In this document: positions 28,589 through 48,721 of the stretch, piece after piece
How the letters are laid out: each line of letters opens with the position of its first letter
Position numbering within the stretch: position 1 is the first letter of the stretch
Notes under the pieces: model-generated
Database searches by the model: none
Told to the model about the DNA's origin: nothing
Seen by the model: only the letters and a program-made list of their open reading frames with translations
Program-made: the position numbers and the translations under genes
NCBI GenBank assembly: GCA_015062495.1
Contig: SUUN01000001.1
Location: forward strand, 285,069 to 349,068
DNA length: 64,000 nt
From: Alphaproteobacteria bacterium
GTDB lineage: Bacteria > Pseudomonadota > Alphaproteobacteria > Rs-D84
Reading direction: 5' to 3'

Positions 28589-31012
28589 ATGGCAGATGTA
28601 AAGATGGCTGATTTTTTGTTGCAGTATTTTATGCAGTTGCGTTTCAATGAAATGCCACCAGAAGTGCGCGCCCAGTACGATGCATATGCCAAAAGCGATG
28701 ATTTTCGCGGTCATATGAAGGAATGGAAAGCACGTTTAGCGGGTCATGACTTGCCAGATCCAAATGGTCCGGACTATCACTTGACCGAAGATGAGTGGAA
28801 AGAACTATTTCGTGAATTCCAAAGCGCATTTCGTAAAATGGATACCAATCGCAAGAACTTTGTCAACGCGGTTGATTTTGGTATAAACAACAAAGATGCG
28901 ATTGAATTTCTGGACGAATATTTTGGGGCAGGAAAACTGTTCGACAAAGCAACCGCCAGCCCCGCCGCCGAGGCACAGATTCAAGTATTAGCCAATGTAT
29001 TAAATTCATATAAAAATATCCTTGAAATTCAATTCTCGGAATGGGGGTTGACTGGTGGTGATTTCTCGTATAATGACTTGACCAAGGGTATCAAAGACAA
29101 GAAATATAATACGGATAGTGATTTTCAGACCAAGGTCAAAAATGTCGCGTATTACCTGACGGCATATACGACAAATCCGTACTACAAAAATGATGACTTG
29201 ATACGTGCGCTGGGTGGAAACGCATTTGACTTTAAGGACATTCAGGAAGGCTTTGACGATAAAGCGGTTGACCCTGCAAAATTAAATGCGTTTAAAACCG
29301 AGTATGATATCCTGTTGCGTACTTTGGCGCACAAGGATAAAATCCGTGACGTATTCCCATCTGACAAAATAAAAACGGCATTTAATACCGCCAAAGAAAA
29401 TGTTGCCTATGATGATAAAAACAGCAAAGATTATGTGCCGCCAAAACGCGACGATGAATTAACACCACTGCAACAACTTTCTAGGTGGGCGGATGATACG
29501 TATGCCGACGTGTTTGAAAAATACATCAAGTTCAAGGGCGACAGACTGTATTTTTCACCACAGGCAAAACAAATTGTTGCCGCTATACACAAGGCCAAGG
29601 TTAAACCAACCGATGGTATCAAAGGCGTCTTGGACAAGGCAGGTGATATAGAAAAGGGATTGTTGTACAAATCGCCCAAGGCAACCGAACACTTTAAATG
29701 GTTTACCAAAACGATGGGCGAACTAAGCAATACAATGCCCAAGGCGTTTGAGGGTGCGTTGCGCAATGGTCGCCAAATGCACGCAATAATCGAAGAAATG
29801 ATTATGATTGCCGTACGTGACGGCAAGGTGGACGAGGCCAAAAGCGCAATGGAAGTCTTGTCCGTTATCAAATACGGATACACCACCAGCAAGATTATGG
29901 ACGCACTGGGCAAGGAAAAGTTAAGCATCTTTTCCGACGGTAAATTGTCTTGGAATAAAAACGAAGGAATGAAATTCGTTACAACCGCCCTGGACAAAAG
30001 TATTAAAACTGCATTTATGGGGATTGGGTACGGTATCACCATGGTTGGGAATGCAATCAACCTGTCGGGCAGCAAGTTTAACGGTCGTCGCGGCCGAATG
30101 ATGGACAAACAACAAGAATGGGCAACGCAAAATGCCGCGGATAAGGCCGCCGCCCAGACCCGCAGAAACACCCTGAATACCCAGGACCAAGCATTGATTC
30201 AGCAAGAAAATCAAAACAAAAGCGATGTAAATCAGAATCTGCAACCTGGTCAACGGACTATTACAGACGCAAATTTTCAACAACAAAAAACAGACCTAGA
30301 AACCGCTCGAACCGCCGAAGACGCAGAAAAGACACGCCTGGAACAGCGCACCCAAGATCCTGCATATATGGCGTCTGCGCAACGGGTTAATGATTATAAT
30401 AATTTATTACAGGAACAAACCTCGTACCAACAAAATCAACCAGTTCTGACCCAGCAAATCGCTGATTTGGATAACCAGATTCAAGCAATTCAGACCGATC
30501 CAAACATGTCCCAGACAGAAAAAGATATGCGCAGTCAGGGATTGATTCAGAATAAGATAGAAAAACAAAATCAACTGGCTCAGATAAATCAAAGACTGGC
30601 CGATATACCGAACGAACTGAATGCGATAACAACGAATCCAAACTGGACAAACGATCAACACATCGTTCAACAGCATCAGGCGGAAACGCAGGCTTATAAT
30701 AATACAGTTGACCAAAATAATGCCCAAAAAGACAGAATCAAAAAATGGGAAAATGCGACCAAAAGTATCGAGGAAATCAACGAACGCATATCCAAACGTG
30801 ACGAAGTTATGGACAAGTGGGACGATAACCACAAGGATAAATACCTGGAACTGATGGCGTATTGGGATATGCTGGAAAGCGGACGCAATACGCATATGGG
30901 AAAAATGTATAACTGGAAACCAATCAAGGCAGGCAATGCCCAGAAAAAATTTGATGGACAAAAACAGACAATTATTTCCGATTATCTGTCAGGGTATTCA
31001 TATGCGGCTTGA
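28589..31012 (+). CDS. Large coiled-coil protein of unknown function
   Basis: 807 residues, no signal peptide, not recognised. Residues 1-450 are mixed helical, Lys/Asp/Tyr-rich. A short hydrophobic patch (FMGIGYGITMVGNAINL, about 473-489) could touch a membrane. From about 510 to 740 the chain is Gln/Asn-rich and strongly helical (QQENQNKSDVNQNLQPGQ; DLDNQIQAIQTDP) with coiled-coil heptads. The end is WDMLESGRNTHMGKMYNWKP. The style (long, Gln-rich, cytosolic start) recalls effector or structural proteins, but nothing visible proves secretion. Own promoter; ribosome site AAAGGG. Confidence 0.7.
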   Translation: MADVKMADFLLQYFMQLRFNEMPPEVRAQYDAYAKSDDFRGHMKEWKARLAGHDLPDPNGPDYHLTEDEWKELFREFQSAFRKMDTNRKNFVNAVDFGINNKDAIEFLDEYFGAGKLFDKATASPAAEAQIQVLANVLNSYKNILEIQFSEWGLTGGDFSYNDLTKGIKDKKYNTDSDFQTKVKNVAYYLTAYTTNPYYKNDDLIRALGGNAFDFKDIQEGFDDKAVDPAKLNAFKTEYDILLRTLAHKDKIRDVFPSDKIKTAFNTAKENVAYDDKNSKDYVPPKRDDELTPLQQLSRWADDTYADVFEKYIKFKGDRLYFSPQAKQIVAAIHKAKVKPTDGIKGVLDKAGDIEKGLLYKSPKATEHFKWFTKTMGELSNTMPKAFEGALRNGRQMHAIIEEMIMIAVRDGKVDEAKSAMEVLSVIKYGYTTSKIMDALGKEKLSIFSDGKLSWNKNEGMKFVTTALDKSIKTAFMGIGYGITMVGNAINLSGSKFNGRRGRMMDKQQEWATQNAADKAAAQTRRNTLNTQDQALIQQENQNKSDVNQNLQPGQRTITDANFQQQKTDLETARTAEDAEKTRLEQRTQDPAYMASAQRVNDYNNLLQEQTSYQQNQPVLTQQIADLDNQIQAIQTDPNMSQTEKDMRSQGLIQNKIEKQNQLAQINQRLADIPNELNAITTNPNWTNDQHIVQQHQAETQAYNNTVDQNNAQKDRIKKWENATKSIEEINERISKRDEVMDKWDDNHKDKYLELMAYWDMLESGRNTHMGKMYNWKPIKAGNAQKKFDGQKQTIISDYLSGYSYAA

Positions 31013-31037
31013 TTTTTTTGGTGATTTGTGATATAAT
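31009..31037 (+). promoter_or_regulatory. Promoter of the two-hairpin leader before the tail-fibre-like gene
   Basis: TTGATT (31009-31014, overlapping the end of the previous gene), 17-base spacer, TATAAT (31032-31037). Confidence 0.68.
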
Positions 31038-31045
31038 ATGGACAT

Positions 31046-31076
31046 GCGTCATCGGGAACGATGGCGTTTGTTTTTT
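31046..31076 (+). terminator. Leader hairpin 1 with GGAA tetraloop and T-tract
   Basis: CGTCATCG, loop GGAA, CGATGGCG (8 bp with one G-U), then TTTGTTTTTT; starts only a few bases after the predicted transcription start. Confidence 0.7.
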
Positions 31077-31080
31077 ATAT

Positions 31081-31107
31081 ACCCGCCTGCTGGCGGGCTT
31101 TTTTTAT
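31081..31107 (+). terminator. Leader hairpin 2 (terminator)
   Basis: CCCGCC, loop TGCT, GGCGGG, then CTTTTTTTATTTT, still upstream of the gene at 31134. Confidence 0.82.
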
Positions 31108-31133
31108 TTTCATGAAAACAAAAAGGATTACTT

Positions 31134-31706
31134 ATGACACGTGTATTACAACTGCGACGTGGCAGTACCGCGCAAAATGACAGTTTTACCGGTCTGCCCG
31201 GCGAAATTACAATGGATACAGACGCCAAGACCGTGCGTATTCATGATGGTGAAACATTGGGTGGATTTGCACTGATGCGCGCGGATAACGCGGCAACCAA
31301 CACCGGAACATTTGATATTACAACGGTTTCTGATGAATTTTGGGCAGATATGGTCGCGCGCCATGCGCCTGCGCCATTTACGGTTGCAAAATCAACCCCA
31401 ATCCAGATGAACAGTAAAACCAGTCATGTAAACTGTATATTCAGCACCGCCCCCATGCCAACATTTGTGCGGGTTGCGCTGATTTGCCAGAATGACCAGG
31501 CCGGATACACCGCAGGCGACGAAGTATGGTCATTTGGAATTGGGGACTGTGCCAATATAACACCAAACTGTTTTATTGATGGGAATGGGCTGAACGTGCG
31601 CTTGATGGTTGGTGCACAAACGTACTGGGCCCCGCATCGCGACACAGGAATACGAACACAACTGAGTGATGAAAATTGGCGTATTTTATTCTATGTTTAT
31701 TATTGA
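31134..31706 (+). CDS. Orphan phage tail-fibre-like protein (MtdN-type N-terminus)
   Basis: 190 residues. The first 50 residues (MTRVLQLRRGSTAQ, GLPGEITMDTDAKTVRIHD, GGFAL) match the N-terminal domain found on many phage tail fibres and receptor-binding proteins, as in the major tropism determinant. The remaining 140 residues are beta-rich (FVRVALICQNDQAGYTAGDE) and end in ENWRILFYVYY. No other tail gene is nearby. Ribosome site AAAAGGATT. It sits behind a leader with two terminators, the same arrangement as the MuF gene at 42869. It may be domesticated or a phage remnant. Confidence 0.7.
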   Translation: MTRVLQLRRGSTAQNDSFTGLPGEITMDTDAKTVRIHDGETLGGFALMRADNAATNTGTFDITTVSDEFWADMVARHAPAPFTVAKSTPIQMNSKTSHVNCIFSTAPMPTFVRVALICQNDQAGYTAGDEVWSFGIGDCANITPNCFIDGNGLNVRLMVGAQTYWAPHRDTGIRTQLSDENWRILFYVYY

Positions 31707-35451: not shown

Positions 35452-36093
35452 TTAGCCGTGCGATGCAACATCAATAACAACAAACTTGAACACAGCCGCA
35501 GGGTCACCACCGGATTCCAGGTAATCTTCGACCGATTGTTTTCCAACTGTGTCACGCATGCCCGGCGCATAGTTTATCCCCAGATATATTGTGCCGCGCG
35601 TGACATCCGGGGTCGACGCAAAATTATTTGGGGTGCGCCACGTCCGCAGTTCATAATTTACAATCCAATATTTGTTATTGGTATCGGGGGCAACTGAAAT
35701 TAATGATACAGTTCGCAGAGCACGATTTTTAGCCAGGTCTTCGATTTCAGGGGCAACTTTTTGTAACCACGTATTAAATACATCGCGCGACGACATACGA
35801 CGCAGGGATGTGCGCCCTTCGCGCCGGCGGGTTACGTCGGACATGTCGGGTGTTACGTAAAAATATTCCGTGATATATTTCGCAATCAGGCGTTCACGCA
35901 TCTTGTCTGCGCCCAGGGTGTGGTCGGACACAGGCACACCAGGACGACGGATGGCGTTATCGTCGGGCTGAAAAAAATATGTGTTGATGGTTGTTTTTGC
36001 GCCTGTGTCGTAAATAACACCCGTCAAAACCAAGGCACCGCACATCAGTACCATTAACAACAATCCCGATAAAAACATTATCAATTTTTTCAT
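35452..36093 (-). CDS. VirB8-like membrane protein 2 (type IV secretion-related)
   Basis: 213 residues: short cytosolic start, membrane helix (LIMFLSGLLLMVLMCGALVLTGVIY), then a periplasmic domain. KMRERLIAKYITEYFYVTPD is followed by FNTWLQKVAPE and a strand pair VSLISVAPDTNNKYWIVNYEL and TRGTIYLGINYAP, the outline of the NTF2-like VirB8/ComB8 fold. Its ATG overlaps the stop of the upstream VirB8-like gene. VirB8 joins inner and outer parts of type IV secretion systems. Assignment rests on topology and pairing, so moderate. Confidence 0.55.
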   Translation of the reverse strand: MKKLIMFLSGLLLMVLMCGALVLTGVIYDTGAKTTINTYFFQPDDNAIRRPGVPVSDHTLGADKMRERLIAKYITEYFYVTPDMSDVTRRREGRTSLRRMSSRDVFNTWLQKVAPEIEDLAKNRALRTVSLISVAPDTNNKYWIVNYELRTWRTPNNFASTPDVTRGTIYLGINYAPGMRDTVGKQSVEDYLESGGDPAAVFKFVVIDVASHG

Positions 36094-36791
36094 CAGTTCA
36101 TCCGATATGCGTTAAAGTCCGCCACATAGTACCCCAATGTTTGTGGATATGCGTCCGTGTTGCGTCCAACCGTCGCATACGCCAAGATTTCAATTGGTGC
36201 AGATTTGTTCGAAATAATTTTTGCACGAATTTGCCACGTGCCACCGTTCGGCAAGACTTCGCCAATTGGTAACATCTGGACAGATGACATATCAATGCGC
36301 CATGTTTCGCCATCCAATATGCGCGCCTGATATTCAGGTTTGACAGTCGAATTAAAACGTGAAAACATATCGTCGCCCGTCAGGCAATATATACCACATG
36401 CACCGGTTTCAACGCCGGTCTTGTTTTCAGGGGTGCAATCAGCCGTACGGTCGCATTTGTTCCAACGCGCGGTGTTTAAATCTGTATTATCTGCAATCCA
36501 AAACCAGTTACGAATAAATTTTCCAATCACAGATTCTTGCAGTGTTTGGGTTGTGGACATTTCGCGCATTGCGCCATGCTGGTGCCCGATGATTTCCCAG
36601 TTGCCTGTGATACTGTTAATCGACACTAAAAATGGATGAACATGGGCGGAACGCTGAACCCACAGCAACAATCCACACGAACATATTATCAGAAAAAACA
36701 CCGTCATTATCGCAATAGACAACGTGCGGGACGACGCAATTCGCGGTCCCGCGGGAAATGTCGGTGTGTTAAATTCGTCTGGATATCTCAA
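36093..36791 (-). CDS. VirB8-like membrane protein 1 (type IV secretion-related)
   Basis: 232 residues. Cytosolic N-terminus of about 25 residues, one membrane helix (LSIAIMTVFFLIICSCGLLLWV), then HPFLVSINSITGNWEIIGH, which matches the VirB8 opening where the strand after the helix reads P(y/f)(v/l)..vd..tG. The domain continues with SVIGKFIRNWFWIADN and closes with LGYYVADFNAYRMN, as in VirB8 (..G..v..Y). Two Cys pairs in an insert (CDRTADC, CGIYC). One-base overlap with the second VirB8-like gene. No VirB4, B9, B10, B11 or D4 is in this window. Confidence 0.65.
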   Translation of the reverse strand: MRYPDEFNTPTFPAGPRIASSRTLSIAIMTVFFLIICSCGLLLWVQRSAHVHPFLVSINSITGNWEIIGHQHGAMREMSTTQTLQESVIGKFIRNWFWIADNTDLNTARWNKCDRTADCTPENKTGVETGACGIYCLTGDDMFSRFNSTVKPEYQARILDGETWRIDMSSVQMLPIGEVLPNGGTWQIRAKIISNKSAPIEILAYATVGRNTDAYPQTLGYYVADFNAYRMN

Positions 36792-42654: not shown

Positions 42655-42732
42655 GGCGGATATAGCTCAGTTGGTTAGAGCGTTGGTTTGTGGTACCAAA
42701 TGTCGCCGGTTCGAGTCCGGTTATCCGCCCCA
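42655..42732 (+). tRNA. tRNA-His (anticodon GTG)
   Basis: Anticodon stem TTGGT/ACCAA with loop TTGTGGT; the extra G at -1 faces C73, as tRNA-His requires; CCA encoded. Confidence 0.94.
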
Positions 42733-42739
42733 TTAATAA

Positions 42740-42763
42740 ACGTCCCGTTTGGGGCGTTTTTTG
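42740..42763 (+). terminator. Terminator of the tRNA cluster
   Basis: CGTCCC, loop GTTT, GGGGCG, then TTTTTTG. It touches the next promoter. Confidence 0.82.
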
Positions 42764-42792
42764 TTGAAAAAATTTGTGTTTTATGGTATAAT
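42764..42792 (+). promoter_or_regulatory. Promoter of the two-hairpin leader before the MuF gene
   Basis: TTGAAA (42764-42769), 17-base spacer, TATAAT (42787-42792). Confidence 0.7.
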
Positions 42793-42806
42793 TCTTGCAT
42801 TTAGTG

Positions 42807-42829
42807 GACGACATTTGGTCGTCTTTTTT
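42807..42829 (+). terminator. Leader hairpin 1 with T-tract
   Basis: GACGAC, loop ATTTG, GTCGTC, then TTTTTTA, about 8 bases after the predicted start. Confidence 0.7.
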
Positions 42830-42832
42830 ATT

Positions 42833-42855
42833 GCCCGCATATGCGGGTGTTTTTT
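42833..42855 (+). terminator. Leader hairpin 2 with T-tract
   Basis: CCCGCAT/ATGCGGG then TGTTTTTTAT, ending 14 bases before the ATG at 42869. Confidence 0.75.
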
Positions 42856-42868
42856 ATGGGGGAAGAAA

Positions 42869-44014
42869 ATGCAAACACCAAAATTTTTACAAGAACTGAT
42901 ATCATCGCCTGAATATGGCGATAAAAACAGCGAAACATATAAACGCGCAACCAAGTATATGAATATCCTGTATCCCGGCACAGTACAGTTTGATGCCACA
43001 GGTCGTATGATGCGCCCAGAATATGATATGACATTGGAGCAGTTTTATAATGCACAACATGAAATAGAAACGGAGTTCGAGTCTGATAAAAGCGAGGCAG
43101 AAGCAGATGTCCTGGACACATACGGTGATTACTTTGAAACAATTGGTTTTAATTTTAACATTGAAGAATATGTTGTTCCTGGCACGCCGATACCGGTCAA
43201 AGTTTTAATGCCGGGTGGCCATGTATCAAAGCGCAGTTTGGAAACTTATGCTTTGAATATTCCAGAGTTTGAAATAAAGCCCAAAATATGGATATGGCAC
43301 AGCGAGCATGGCGAAAATACATGCGACGACTGCTTGGGGAATGATGGGACGGTCTATGAAAACAAAGAAGGCATACCGACGTGTCCCGTTCACCCAAACT
43401 GTCGTTGTTGGGTTGAAGAAATAGAGCTGGACAAAAATGGCAAGAAAATAGACAGCAAGGTTTATAAAGGCCAAAAGCCAGAAACACAAAAGGTAACTGA
43501 TATGAAATTTGAACAAGCGTACAATAAATTACAAGAACCCGAAGGAGGCTATACAGACGGCAAAGATCAAGTTGATGATGAACCAACAAATATGGGCATA
43601 AAACAAAGCACGCTGGATAGATACGCTAACAAGCATCCAGACAAAAATTTCCCAGCAGATGTAAAATATTTAACCGCCGCACAGGCCAAAGAAATTTATA
43701 AAAACGAATATTGGGATAATACAAGAATCCCGGAAATCAAAAATGACAGAATACGTGATGCTGTTTTCGATATGAATGTAATGGGTGGCGCAGGCAAAAC
43801 CGTTCAGCGTGCATTAAATTCTTTCTTGGACGCAAATTTAGTTGTTGATGGCGCAATAGGTGGTAATACAATTAAATCTATAAATGCGATTCCTGATAGC
43901 AAAGTCAATGAATTTATGGTTGCACTAAAATCTGAAAGAATAGATTATTTAAAGAGCACGCCAAACTGGGTAACAGCAAAAAACGGTTGGTTGAAAAGAG
44001 TAAATAAATACTAA
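42869..44014 (+). CDS. MuF-like phage head protein fused to a GH108-type muramidase
   Basis: 381 residues from the ATG at 42869, which follows GGGGGAAG; an earlier frame would run through the leader hairpins. The N-terminal third is helical. A MuF-like zinc/Cys segment follows: CDDC (152-155), C172, H175, C178 and C180 in HPNCRCW, as in phage Mu gpF-type minor head proteins. From about 212 a lysozyme-like domain begins with QEPEGGY (Glu225 the likely acid) and MGIKQSTLDRYA. It ends with a peptidoglycan-binding-like block (VDGAIGGNTIKSINAI). This order resembles MuF polymorphic toxins with a C-terminal effector. No other phage gene is close. The next gene is convergent, with no gap. Confidence 0.75.
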   Translation: MQTPKFLQELISSPEYGDKNSETYKRATKYMNILYPGTVQFDATGRMMRPEYDMTLEQFYNAQHEIETEFESDKSEAEADVLDTYGDYFETIGFNFNIEEYVVPGTPIPVKVLMPGGHVSKRSLETYALNIPEFEIKPKIWIWHSEHGENTCDDCLGNDGTVYENKEGIPTCPVHPNCRCWVEEIELDKNGKKIDSKVYKGQKPETQKVTDMKFEQAYNKLQEPEGGYTDGKDQVDDEPTNMGIKQSTLDRYANKHPDKNFPADVKYLTAAQAKEIYKNEYWDNTRIPEIKNDRIRDAVFDMNVMGGAGKTVQRALNSFLDANLVVDGAIGGNTIKSINAIPDSKVNEFMVALKSERIDYLKSTPNWVTAKNGWLKRVNKY

Positions 44015-44449
44015 TTACTGTCTAATCCATACCCCTTCAAGTGTTGCTTGTATGCCACAAAAGGCGCTAAATGAATCTGCATTGATAAAATGCAGATTCA
44101 TTTTATCTTCTGACTCCATTTGAAACAATATACCAACAGGGATAAAATATTCCGTATCTGTCTCTCTGTCATATTGATATTTTTTGCTGTTGTATTCTGC
44201 CTTATCTCCGCTGATTTTTATTTTACCTTCAACATCACAGATATGTAAGTCGTACCAAGATTCCAATTTAAAATCGCATGTTGTATCAACACAATCAAAA
44301 ATTTCCATCACGCCACCAAAAACAGTGTCCTGGTCATTTAGATACCACTTCCCCGCCCACTTTTGGGTTGTGTTTTCACATTTTGCCGACTGATGAATCA
44401 GCATACAAGAACATAAAGTGTATATAAAAAAATGCGCGTTTTTATTCAT
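44015..44449 (-). CDS. Exported protein facing the MuF-muramidase gene; possible immunity protein
   Basis: 144 residues, not recognised. Signal peptide (NAHFFIYTLCSCMLIHQSA), then a beta-rich domain with two Cys pairs (CVDTTC, and ICDVEG with CGIQATLEGVW). The build (small, periplasmic, disulfides) is that of lysozyme inhibitors of the LprI/PliC kind, but no diagnostic motif is visible. Its stop abuts the stop of the muramidase fusion gene (44014/44015). A role in protecting the cell wall is inference from that position. Confidence 0.6.
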   Translation of the reverse strand: MNKNAHFFIYTLCSCMLIHQSAKCENTTQKWAGKWYLNDQDTVFGGVMEIFDCVDTTCDFKLESWYDLHICDVEGKIKISGDKAEYNSKKYQYDRETDTEYFIPVGILFQMESEDKMNLHFINADSFSAFCGIQATLEGVWIRQ

Positions 44450-44646
44450 CTATGTGTATTATATTGCTATGCTTAACAGGTGTCAATTATGAAAAAATAG
44501 ATTGCACAAAGGCAATTGATATTGATTTTTTATTATCTGATTTGCCATAATGCCAGTATGAAAAAGATAAAGTACTAACTTGCTTTTTCAATTTCTACAA
44601 ATATTTCGTTCGATGACCGGTACTGTTTTGTGCGTGTTTATTGTAT

Positions 44647-46393: not shown

Positions 46394-46711
46394 TTATATC
46401 GTTTTTGGTGCTCTGGCCCGTTTTGGTAATTTATCAGCGTCCAGCATCAATCCGACTTGGTCAAAGCTTATGTCTGCAACTTCTGCCAGTCTGTCGTGCA
46501 GTCCCAATACAAACAATACCTTGGCATAAATGCCCATAGATGTTGCAGGGTCGCCTTTTTCAACCTTGGCCAGTGTTGGTCTGGTTATGCCTGCGCGTTG
46601 TATCATCATTTCTGCGGTTATGCGTCTGCGAATTCGGGCGTCTTTGATGTCTGCCCCCAGTTTTACCAATGCGCGCTTAACCGGGTTTGGATAAATTGTT
46701 GTTTTTCTCAT
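46394..46711 (-). CDS. XRE-family (HipB-like) regulator
   Basis: 105 residues. HTH: LGADIKDARIRRRITAEMMIQRAGITRPTLAKVEKGD, with the spacing of HipB-type antitoxins and transcriptional repressors. The tail (LMLDADKLPKRARAPKTI) is basic. No hipA-like toxin is adjacent. The gene faces an upstream region with repeated TTTACATTA/TAATGTAAA half-sites, which suggests autoregulation. Confidence 0.82.
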   Translation of the reverse strand: MRKTTIYPNPVKRALVKLGADIKDARIRRRITAEMMIQRAGITRPTLAKVEKGDPATSMGIYAKVLFVLGLHDRLAEVADISFDQVGLMLDADKLPKRARAPKTI

Positions 46712-46767: not shown

Positions 46768-47194
46768 GATAATTTCTGTTTTGTCAAATTCATTATACCA
46801 CAAATCGCACTAAAAAGAAAGAGGTATCACATCGGATACAAAAATAAGAGGTTTATTATTGGTATTAGCCATCCTAAAAAACATGAAAAATCCCAAAATT
46901 CGATTCGGGGCAAAAGTTTGATTTTTTTGTCGAGTGCCGTCGATGAGCCGTTGTTTCAAAAACTGACAAAATATGATTTAATACTATTTAGACGTGTTTT
47001 AATGTAGTTTTGATACATTATGATACAAATTTTTTTAGTAAAAACAGGCCGTTTTTTGCTGGTTTTGCAAGACTTTTACTTTTTTATGTGCTATAAATTA
47101 TATGTACAGATATAAAAAGTTGTTGTGATATCAGATTGTATAAAGCGACCTTTTTATATCCTACAAACCATATTGAAACCCAAAGGAGAATAAC

Positions 47195-47449
47195 ATGGAT
47201 TACCAATTCATGAACCATGGAGGACAAGAGAGAGATACAAGACAATACGCCCTGAACAAGGAAGCGTTTAAAGACAGACTGTTTACACCAAAGCAATTAG
47301 CTGACTATCTTTGTTCGTCTGTTTCGGCATTAAGTCAATATCGTGCACTGGGGATTGGACCTGCGTACTTCAAGATCGGCAAAATGGTACGTTACCCCCT
47401 GTCTGAGGTAAATAAGTGGCTGGAACAAAAAAGAAGCGATAAAAAATAG
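47195..47449 (+). CDS. AlpA/excisionase-like HTH protein
   Basis: 84 residues. After a polar start comes the MerR/HTH_17 pattern: LFTPKQLADYLCSSVSALSQYRALGIGP, then FKIGKMVRYPLSEVNKWLEQ (wing with R-Y). Such proteins act as excisionases or activate the integrase gene. AAAGGAG lies before the ATG. The integrase starts 64 bases further on. Confidence 0.85.
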   Translation: MDYQFMNHGGQERDTRQYALNKEAFKDRLFTPKQLADYLCSSVSALSQYRALGIGPAYFKIGKMVRYPLSEVNKWLEQKRSDKK

Positions 47450-47512: not shown

Positions 47513-48721
47513 ATGGCAGAACAATGGAAATGCTATACAAAGCCGTTTCGGGACACTTGGATACATCTGTTGCATTCAGATGTTAACCTGCAGGTCAGCG
47601 ACGGCACCATCCCAGGATTATTCCTGCGATATTCTGCGGCAACACGCAATATTCGGTTTTTCCTGGGGTGTAAAATAGATAACAAGAAATGCAATATTTT
47701 TATAGGTCGCTACAGAGATTATTCTATCAAAGATATTCGTGACATGGCGTGGAATATGCGACATCAAATTGCCCAAGGCGAAGACCCACGCAGAAAAAGA
47801 ATAGAAGAACAACTGAAAGAAAAAGAAACGCTGGGTGAACAGGTAAAAGTACTGTTCCCGCAATATATGGACAAATATTCCAAAATATACAAGAAGCCAC
47901 GAACCCAGGATTCTAATTGGGGGCAATATAGATTATATTTAGCGCCTATGTTTGATAAGCTGTACATACGCCAAATAGAAGAAAAACATGTAATGGACGC
48001 CTATGCCAAGTGGGTAAAGAAAACGTCTTTCTCAACCGCGAACAAAGCGCTGTCTCTGTTCTCTAATTTCTGGGATTGGTGCGAAATGTATAAATACGTA
48101 GATCGCAATACAAACCCATGCAAGTATGTTCGCAAAGGTTCAAACAAAGTTTATAAGCCACAAATACTGGACCAAGACGGTTATCGTGCATTATCGCATG
48201 CGCTGGATGTTGGGCCCCAGGTATCTAAAATGCACCCACGGTTATTCAATGCGTTGCGGGTGCTGATGCTGACTGGGTGTCGTGCGTCTGAAATAACCGG
48301 GCTAGAGGTAGAAGAACTTGCGCTTATGCACAAGGTAATACACCTGAAAGACAGCAAGACCGGCGCTCGGGATGTAAAACTGTCTGATGCGGTTATACCA
48401 TACTTGCAGGCTGCGCTGGATGAAGCAACCGCACTGGGCAGCAAATATGTATTCCCAGGTGTTGGGAACGAGCACAGACCAATAAACAACATCCGCAAGC
48501 CATTTGAATGGGCACTGTCATATGCCAAGCTGCCACATATGCGAATACACGACCTGCGACATTCGTTTATCAGTATGGGTGCAAATATCGGTGAAAATAT
48601 AGCTGCCATGAAAGAAGCAGCTGGCCATTCCCGTATAACCACCACCGAAGGATATACCCACATCATGGACAGCAGCACCTATCGTGCCATCAATAACGTT
48701 GCAAATGCAATATGTGCCTAA
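47513..48721 (+). CDS. int: P4-type tyrosine integrase
   Basis: 402 residues. N-terminal arm-binding domain, then a core-binding region and the catalytic domain with Arg257 (LTGCRASEITGL), His346 and Arg349 (HDLRHSF), His372 (GHSRITTTEGY) and the nucleophile Tyr381. A complete set, so probably active. P4-like integrases enter the 3' part of tRNA genes, which agrees with the tRNA-Asn fragment 1.4 kb away. Ribosome site AAAGGAG. Confidence 0.93.
   Translation: MAEQWKCYTKPFRDTWIHLLHSDVNLQVSDGTIPGLFLRYSAATRNIRFFLGCKIDNKKCNIFIGRYRDYSIKDIRDMAWNMRHQIAQGEDPRRKRIEEQLKEKETLGEQVKVLFPQYMDKYSKIYKKPRTQDSNWGQYRLYLAPMFDKLYIRQIEEKHVMDAYAKWVKKTSFSTANKALSLFSNFWDWCEMYKYVDRNTNPCKYVRKGSNKVYKPQILDQDGYRALSHALDVGPQVSKMHPRLFNALRVLMLTGCRASEITGLEVEELALMHKVIHLKDSKTGARDVKLSDAVIPYLQAALDEATALGSKYVFPGVGNEHRPINNIRKPFEWALSYAKLPHMRIHDLRHSFISMGANIGENIAAMKEAAGHSRITTTEGYTHIMDSSTYRAINNVANAICA

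Follow-up and report, generated by a model that had tools for sequence, protein, structure and literature searches.

Few antitermination regulons control unlinked chromosomal genes; to our knowledge, the clearest processive example is that of AlpA in Pseudomonas aeruginosa. The AlpA-binding element lies between the -35 and -10 boxes, terminators precede lysis genes and ampDh3, and the regulon comprises alpBCDE and PA0807 (ampDh3, a peptidoglycan factor), with two terminators at PA0807 (PMC7969949, PMC9371919). Here, we analysed a window of 64,000 nucleotides (contig SUUN01000001.1) from a 0.9 Mb alphaproteobacterial genome, whose closest named relatives are genomes assembled from the gut metagenomes of goat, sheep, deer and buffalo. 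The window contains, at 31009-31133 and 42764-42868 of its forward strand, two leaders in which one promoter and two terminators precede a phage-type gene, as an earlier note on this DNA had described; all their elements were located by scan. We propose that the leader is an off-by-default regulon switch, released by a processive antiterminator loading at the promoter, a leading but unproven reading to which we give a probability of about 0.5.

Since the same anatomy has been shown with experiments for AlpA, that system is a precedent for reading these leaders as sites of antitermination. As in the AlpA regulon, the loci are unlinked on the chromosome, intrinsic terminators stand just ahead of the first gene and the products are active in lysis or on peptidoglycan. 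Unlike AlpA, whose element is GGGACG, the leaders carry an A/T tract and show no pause element; each genome has them at several loci, this in over 150 species, and many of the loci are small cassettes at tRNA genes. They also resemble the late promoters of lambdoid phages controlled by Q (lambda pR'-tR', phage 21, phage 82), which combine a strong promoter, an in-promoter site, a start-proximal terminator and lysis-type genes, but differ from them in lying outside phages, before scattered single genes, with two terminators and no detected sigma-dependent pause element. The literature searched, the coverage of which is incomplete, contained no previous account of this leader and no tandem-terminator regulon other than that of AlpA.

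A conserved leader with two terminators

Both window leaders present the same order of elements on the forward strand, namely TTGA, an extended -10 TATAAT, two tandem intrinsic terminators, a ribosome-binding site and ATG, the first stem starting about 8-13 nt past the -10. In the leader of the gene encoding a MuF-GH108 protein, the promoter (42764..42792, TTGAAA-17-TATAAT) contains TTGA, an A/T tract adjoining the -35 (42768..42773) and the extended -10 TATGGTATAAT. It is followed by terminator 1 at 42806..42830 (hairpin 42806-42824, GGACGAC..GTCGTC, then T6) and by terminator 2 at 42832..42855 (hairpin 42832-42849, GCCCGC..GCGGGT, then T6). In the leader of a tail-fibre-like gene, the promoter (31009..31037, TTGATTTTTT...TTTGTGATATAAT, TTGATT-17-TATAAT with TG at the extended -10) is followed by terminator 1 at 31046..31075 (hairpin 31046-31067 and a T-tract) and terminator 2 at 31082..31105 (hairpin 31082-31097, CCCGCC..GGCGGG, then T7).

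Further examples, which the earlier note had proposed to seek genome-wide, do exist. A third copy (C1:33125-33233, minus strand; 87% identity over 109 nt, E=3e-32) precedes a Tlde1/L,D-transpeptidase-like gene with a peptidoglycan-binding part, and a search of the genome for TATAAT followed by two T-tracts yields three true double-terminator sites, every one with this promoter, which argues against a chance layout. The two window leaders do differ outside their stems and are no simple duplication of each other, as first noticed. The idea of a convergent design is nevertheless not retained, since a covariance model for which 21 leaders, but not the 31009 copy, were used still gives this copy a score of 49 bits; all the copies are homologous, joined through intermediates. 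The same model matches 153 of 156 genomes of the genus at E<=0.01, mostly with several copies each. At E<=1e-4, it matches 10 genomes from other genera of the same family and none of the listed genomes from other families of the order. The regulon is real at the sequence level.

The RNAs of the window leaders are predicted to fold into two separate hairpins (z about -5, with none of 200 shuffles equally stable), and exactly two hairpins are formed by 76 of 78 leader RNAs. When 81 leaders are aligned to the model, all 11 base pairs of the two hairpins show double-sided changes and 95% of the cells are paired; cells with double-sided changes number 154, versus 31±10 in shuffled alignments and 15-22 when partners are slid. 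As this alignment is fitted to the structure, these counts are biased in its favour; both the slid controls and a 21-sequence MAFFT alignment nonetheless agree. This compensatory change at 11/11 pairs shows that hairpins of the termination type persist although their sequence varies. No competing antiterminator fold is apparent: the native fold has a mean of -20.3 kcal/mol versus -8.3 for the best alternative, and the two come within 5 kcal of each other in 5 leaders out of 78. With two hairpins in nearly all leaders and no rival fold, a riboswitch or ordinary attenuator is disfavoured.

A strong promoter followed by two terminators would also produce an RNA of about 55-60 nt, and this small two-hairpin RNA could be the main, trans-acting product, in which case the downstream gene would be a passenger. 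This seems barely plausible to us, as conservation is mainly structural, no strongly conserved single-stranded stretch is seen ahead of hairpin 1, the leader has no Rfam match and the type of downstream gene is consistent.

The A/T tract and the proposed switch

None of 78 leaders has G or C at the first four positions of the A/T tract. Among promoters chosen solely by the shared motif TTG-N13-TTTRTGRTATAAT, with terminators sought within 60 nt, at least one terminator follows 23 of the 28 with TTG[AC]W5 and two follow 13 of them, as against 1 and 0, respectively, of 32 promoters with other spacers (p=9e-11 and 7e-6); some of these 28 promoters come from genomes used for the model, the loci themselves not having been used. 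Phage-like genes follow the TTG[AC]W5 class only, and the genes behind the other promoters look ordinary (CarD-like, pilin-like, exported proteins). Promoters with the A/T tract are rarer in other families (3/38 versus 43/96). These results show that the presence of terminators can be predicted from a feature within the preceding promoter, a link reminiscent of the Q- and AlpA-binding elements (QBE/ABE).

This link bears on a rival explanation, in which a strong promoter and two terminators form a leaky lock, with no dedicated factor, giving constant, low and noisy but sufficient expression of harmful proteins. Such a lock would account for silence and for the conserved hairpins, and it fits with many products being cell-wall hydrolases, potentially harmful to their producer, many of them next to an immunity-type gene. 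It leaves unexplained, however, the tie between A/T tract and terminators as well as the presence of the same lock on tail fibres and methylases, and a weak promoter would achieve the same effect; we consider it rather unlikely.

The leader genes are under purifying selection (dN/dS, the ratio of non-synonymous to synonymous changes, of 0.13-0.26) and hence in use, yet there is no space for a promoter after hairpin 2. The layout therefore needs read-through or antitermination, and two consecutive terminators call for the processive form. To this extent the earlier suggestion of control by antitermination is supported. According to the switch that we propose, a strong extended -10 promoter would start transcription and the two intrinsic terminators would halt RNA polymerase some 30 and 60 nt further on, leaving the phage-like gene (peptidoglycan-hydrolase effector, tail-fibre protein or methylase) silent or nearly so. 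The neighbouring probable immunity gene would, in the window at least, be expressed from a consensus promoter of its own that no terminator blocks. In response to some signal, a processive antiterminator would load on the polymerase, probably via the A/T tract in the spacer between the -35 and -10 boxes (at 42768..42773 in the MuF-GH108 leader, a candidate loading site), and would take it past both terminators, switching on the scattered members together.

Several points weigh against this switch. Its antiterminator gene was not found among the NusG paralogues sought, Q-type families not having been searched. In particular, the LoaP-like factor suggested at the outset has no counterpart: in 40 genomes, 37 of which have one NusG-domain match and none more than one, no second such protein of the LoaP or RfaH type was detected, and antitermination by a NusG paralogue was rejected as a candidate. 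Q and AlpA require a -10-like sigma pause element, and such an element is not enriched at +1 to +10 of the leaders (13/78 versus 23% in shuffles). A strict scan detects no more than one terminator at roughly one in two independent A/T-tract promoters, and terminator 1, very near the start, could be weak. Finally, the antitermination step is inferred from sequence.

Tentatively, the switch could be extended to a family-wide chromosomal antitermination regulon, in which a factor unrelated to NusG paralogues would read the promoter A/T tract and jointly free scattered, partly mobile phage-type effectors, tail-fibre proteins and methylases, new cassettes joining through their own double-terminator leader. 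If true, such a regulon would travel with effector cassettes across the family, so that acquired toxin genes would be silent yet at once wired into a common response. The position of scattered phage-like genes behind one conserved switch suggests a hidden arsenal released by a factor, and the leader offers a defined sequence handle to seek a new antiterminator and an effector delivery route in uncultured gut bacteria.

Effector-like genes and their neighbours

In the sample, for which loci were picked by leader score and which is thus no census of genes, nearly all leaders read precede phage-type genes. These encode MuF-like proteins whose C-terminal end is a GH108, GH24-type lysozyme or Tlde1 domain, as well as lone lysozymes, lone GH108 proteins, Mtd_N tail-fibre proteins, other tail-fibre starts and EcoRI-type adenine methylases. 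One and the same N-terminal MuF-like part is joined to the differing hydrolase ends (GH108, GH24, Tlde1). MuF polymorphic toxins are similarly composed of a MuF-like part and exchangeable toxin ends, with immunity-type neighbours (PMC3482391). The leader genes share this fusion to variable toxin ends and may share the immunity-type neighbours, but they form lone cassettes with no portal in the genus sample, unlike MuF systems, which stand alongside terminase, portal and capsid genes.

Signal peptides and membrane segments were called by a simple hydrophobicity rule with a cut of 2.0. By this rule, a signal-peptide-like start is absent from 79 of 80 leader genes, and the next gene has such a start or a membrane segment in 43 of 72 cases, chiefly those of the MuF and Tlde1 classes; no exported or membrane neighbour accompanies the tail-fibre genes or many of the lone lysozymes. 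The small exported or membrane neighbours of effectors are likely to be immunity proteins. Downstream of the MuF-like effector in L155, L167, L170, L176 and L190 lies a 165 aa exported protein, GH108-like by eye and with no Pfam match, which may be an inactive copy of the enzyme serving as immunity. In L091 and L165, a 216 aa protein lacking any Pfam match stands behind the leader, and the 148 aa protein after it looks DUF488-like by eye; this pair could be another module of the same regulon.

In the window, the 42764 leader precedes an effector gene (42869..44014, plus strand, ATG at 42869) encoding a 381 aa protein with a MuF-like N-terminal part, a GH108 muramidase C-terminal part and no signal peptide. 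Its dN/dS is 0.13-0.16. Its MuF score of 24.3 is below the Pfam cut-off of 29.6, and its predicted structure gives a fold match for the GH108 part only. Convergent with it lies a 144 aa gene of no Pfam family (44015..44449, minus strand), which is probably its immunity gene. The grading is no stronger than probable because its borderline signal-peptide-like start scores 1.8, just below the cut; a relative in L076 scores 2.83. The promoter of this gene is a perfect consensus (44458..44486, minus strand, TTGACA-17-TATAAT), with no terminator behind, and is kept in the L076 relative. It ends 8-9 nt short of the start codon, so that the mRNA would be nearly leaderless.

The 31009 leader precedes a gene under purifying selection (31134..31706, plus strand, ATG at 31134) for a 190 aa protein with an Mtd_N tail-fibre N-terminal domain. 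The -35 of this leader is overlapped by the stop codon of the preceding gene (28589-31012, plus strand), which encodes an 807 aa protein of no clear family.

As to delivery, bactericidal type IV secretion systems (T4SS) use X-Tfe effectors, including a cytoplasmic lysozyme-like effector without signal peptide, paired with a periplasmic lipoprotein inhibitor, X-Tfi (PMC10933484). The leader genes are alike in encoding lysozyme-like effectors without signal peptide, and the source genome has VirB4 and VirB8-like genes; they are unlike in that the shared part is N-terminal and MuF-like. VirB4, the T4SS ATPase, is found in most genomes of the order. In the source genome it lies elsewhere than the VirB8-like gene, which is one of two adjacent genes at 35452-36791 (minus strand) and matches VirB8 weakly, just under the cut-off. 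A T4SS is no more than a candidate for effector delivery, which is itself presumed.

tRNA genes, phages and other neighbours

Among the 75 leaders with enough upstream sequence, 30 lie at most 400 nt behind a same-strand tRNA gene, whereas, given about 40 tRNA genes in 0.9 Mb, we estimate that about 1% would do so by chance. The window effector is a case in point, tRNA-His (42656-42732) and its terminator (42738-42759) preceding the leader on the plus strand, with the tRNA 31 nt upstream of the leader promoter. tRNA genes are usual integration sites. Direct repeats of 20-52 nt flank about seven cassettes of 1.6-2.4 kb, among them the Tlde1 cassette of the source genome, with a 27 nt repeat from the end of tRNA-Glu; as control pairs from other loci occasionally gave long matches, these repeats are supportive but no proof. 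No direct repeats were found around the GH108 cassette of the window, and no integrase was seen inside the cassettes read out.

The position behind tRNA genes, the repeats around some loci and the gene types, which are those of phage late genes, would agree with a phage late-gene switch, the leaders being late promoters of decayed prophages or of a phage and the genes their remnants or cargo. The purifying selection on the leader genes does not fit with this, and none of 80 phage contigs with related tail-fibre starts contains the leader. Pattern scans of the whole of IMG/VR yield three true leaders only, each preceding a methylase that lies close to a P2-like tail module or to host genes. In addition, the portal PF04860 is absent from 45 genomes including the source genome, with positive controls, other portal, capsid and terminase families not having been searched. 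We hold this explanation to be improbable. No relative of the GH108-MuF protein was found in viral contigs by the search made. The first description of the loci as a possible regulon of domesticated phage genes is thus kept for its regulon-like loci and phage-type genes; "domesticated" is not, as many loci are effector-immunity-like cassettes at tRNA genes, with no phage portal detected in these genomes and no leader in those phage contigs.

Three IMG/VR contigs, L217, L218 and L219, contain a leader-controlled EcoRI-type methylase and a phospholipase D (PLD)-like nuclease, flanked by bacterial genes. In L217 and L218, a P2-like tail module (sheath, tube, tape measure, gpU, gpD-like) lies beside the methylase. 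The region is possibly a tailocin or prophage of this bacterial family. A P2-like tail module as common partner of the leaders was rejected, the sheath not being found in 40 genomes of the genus (without a positive control).

Beyond the GH108 cassette, at 3.5 kb, lie a phage-type integrase (47513-48721, plus strand) and a small excisionase-like gene (47195-47449); no attachment (att) repeat shared by this region and the tRNA-His end was found. Between them and the cassette, an XRE-type regulator (46394-46711, minus strand) has an extended -10 promoter with the same motif (46792-46820) and no terminators, and its leader contains the inverted repeat TTTACATTA/TAATGTAAA.
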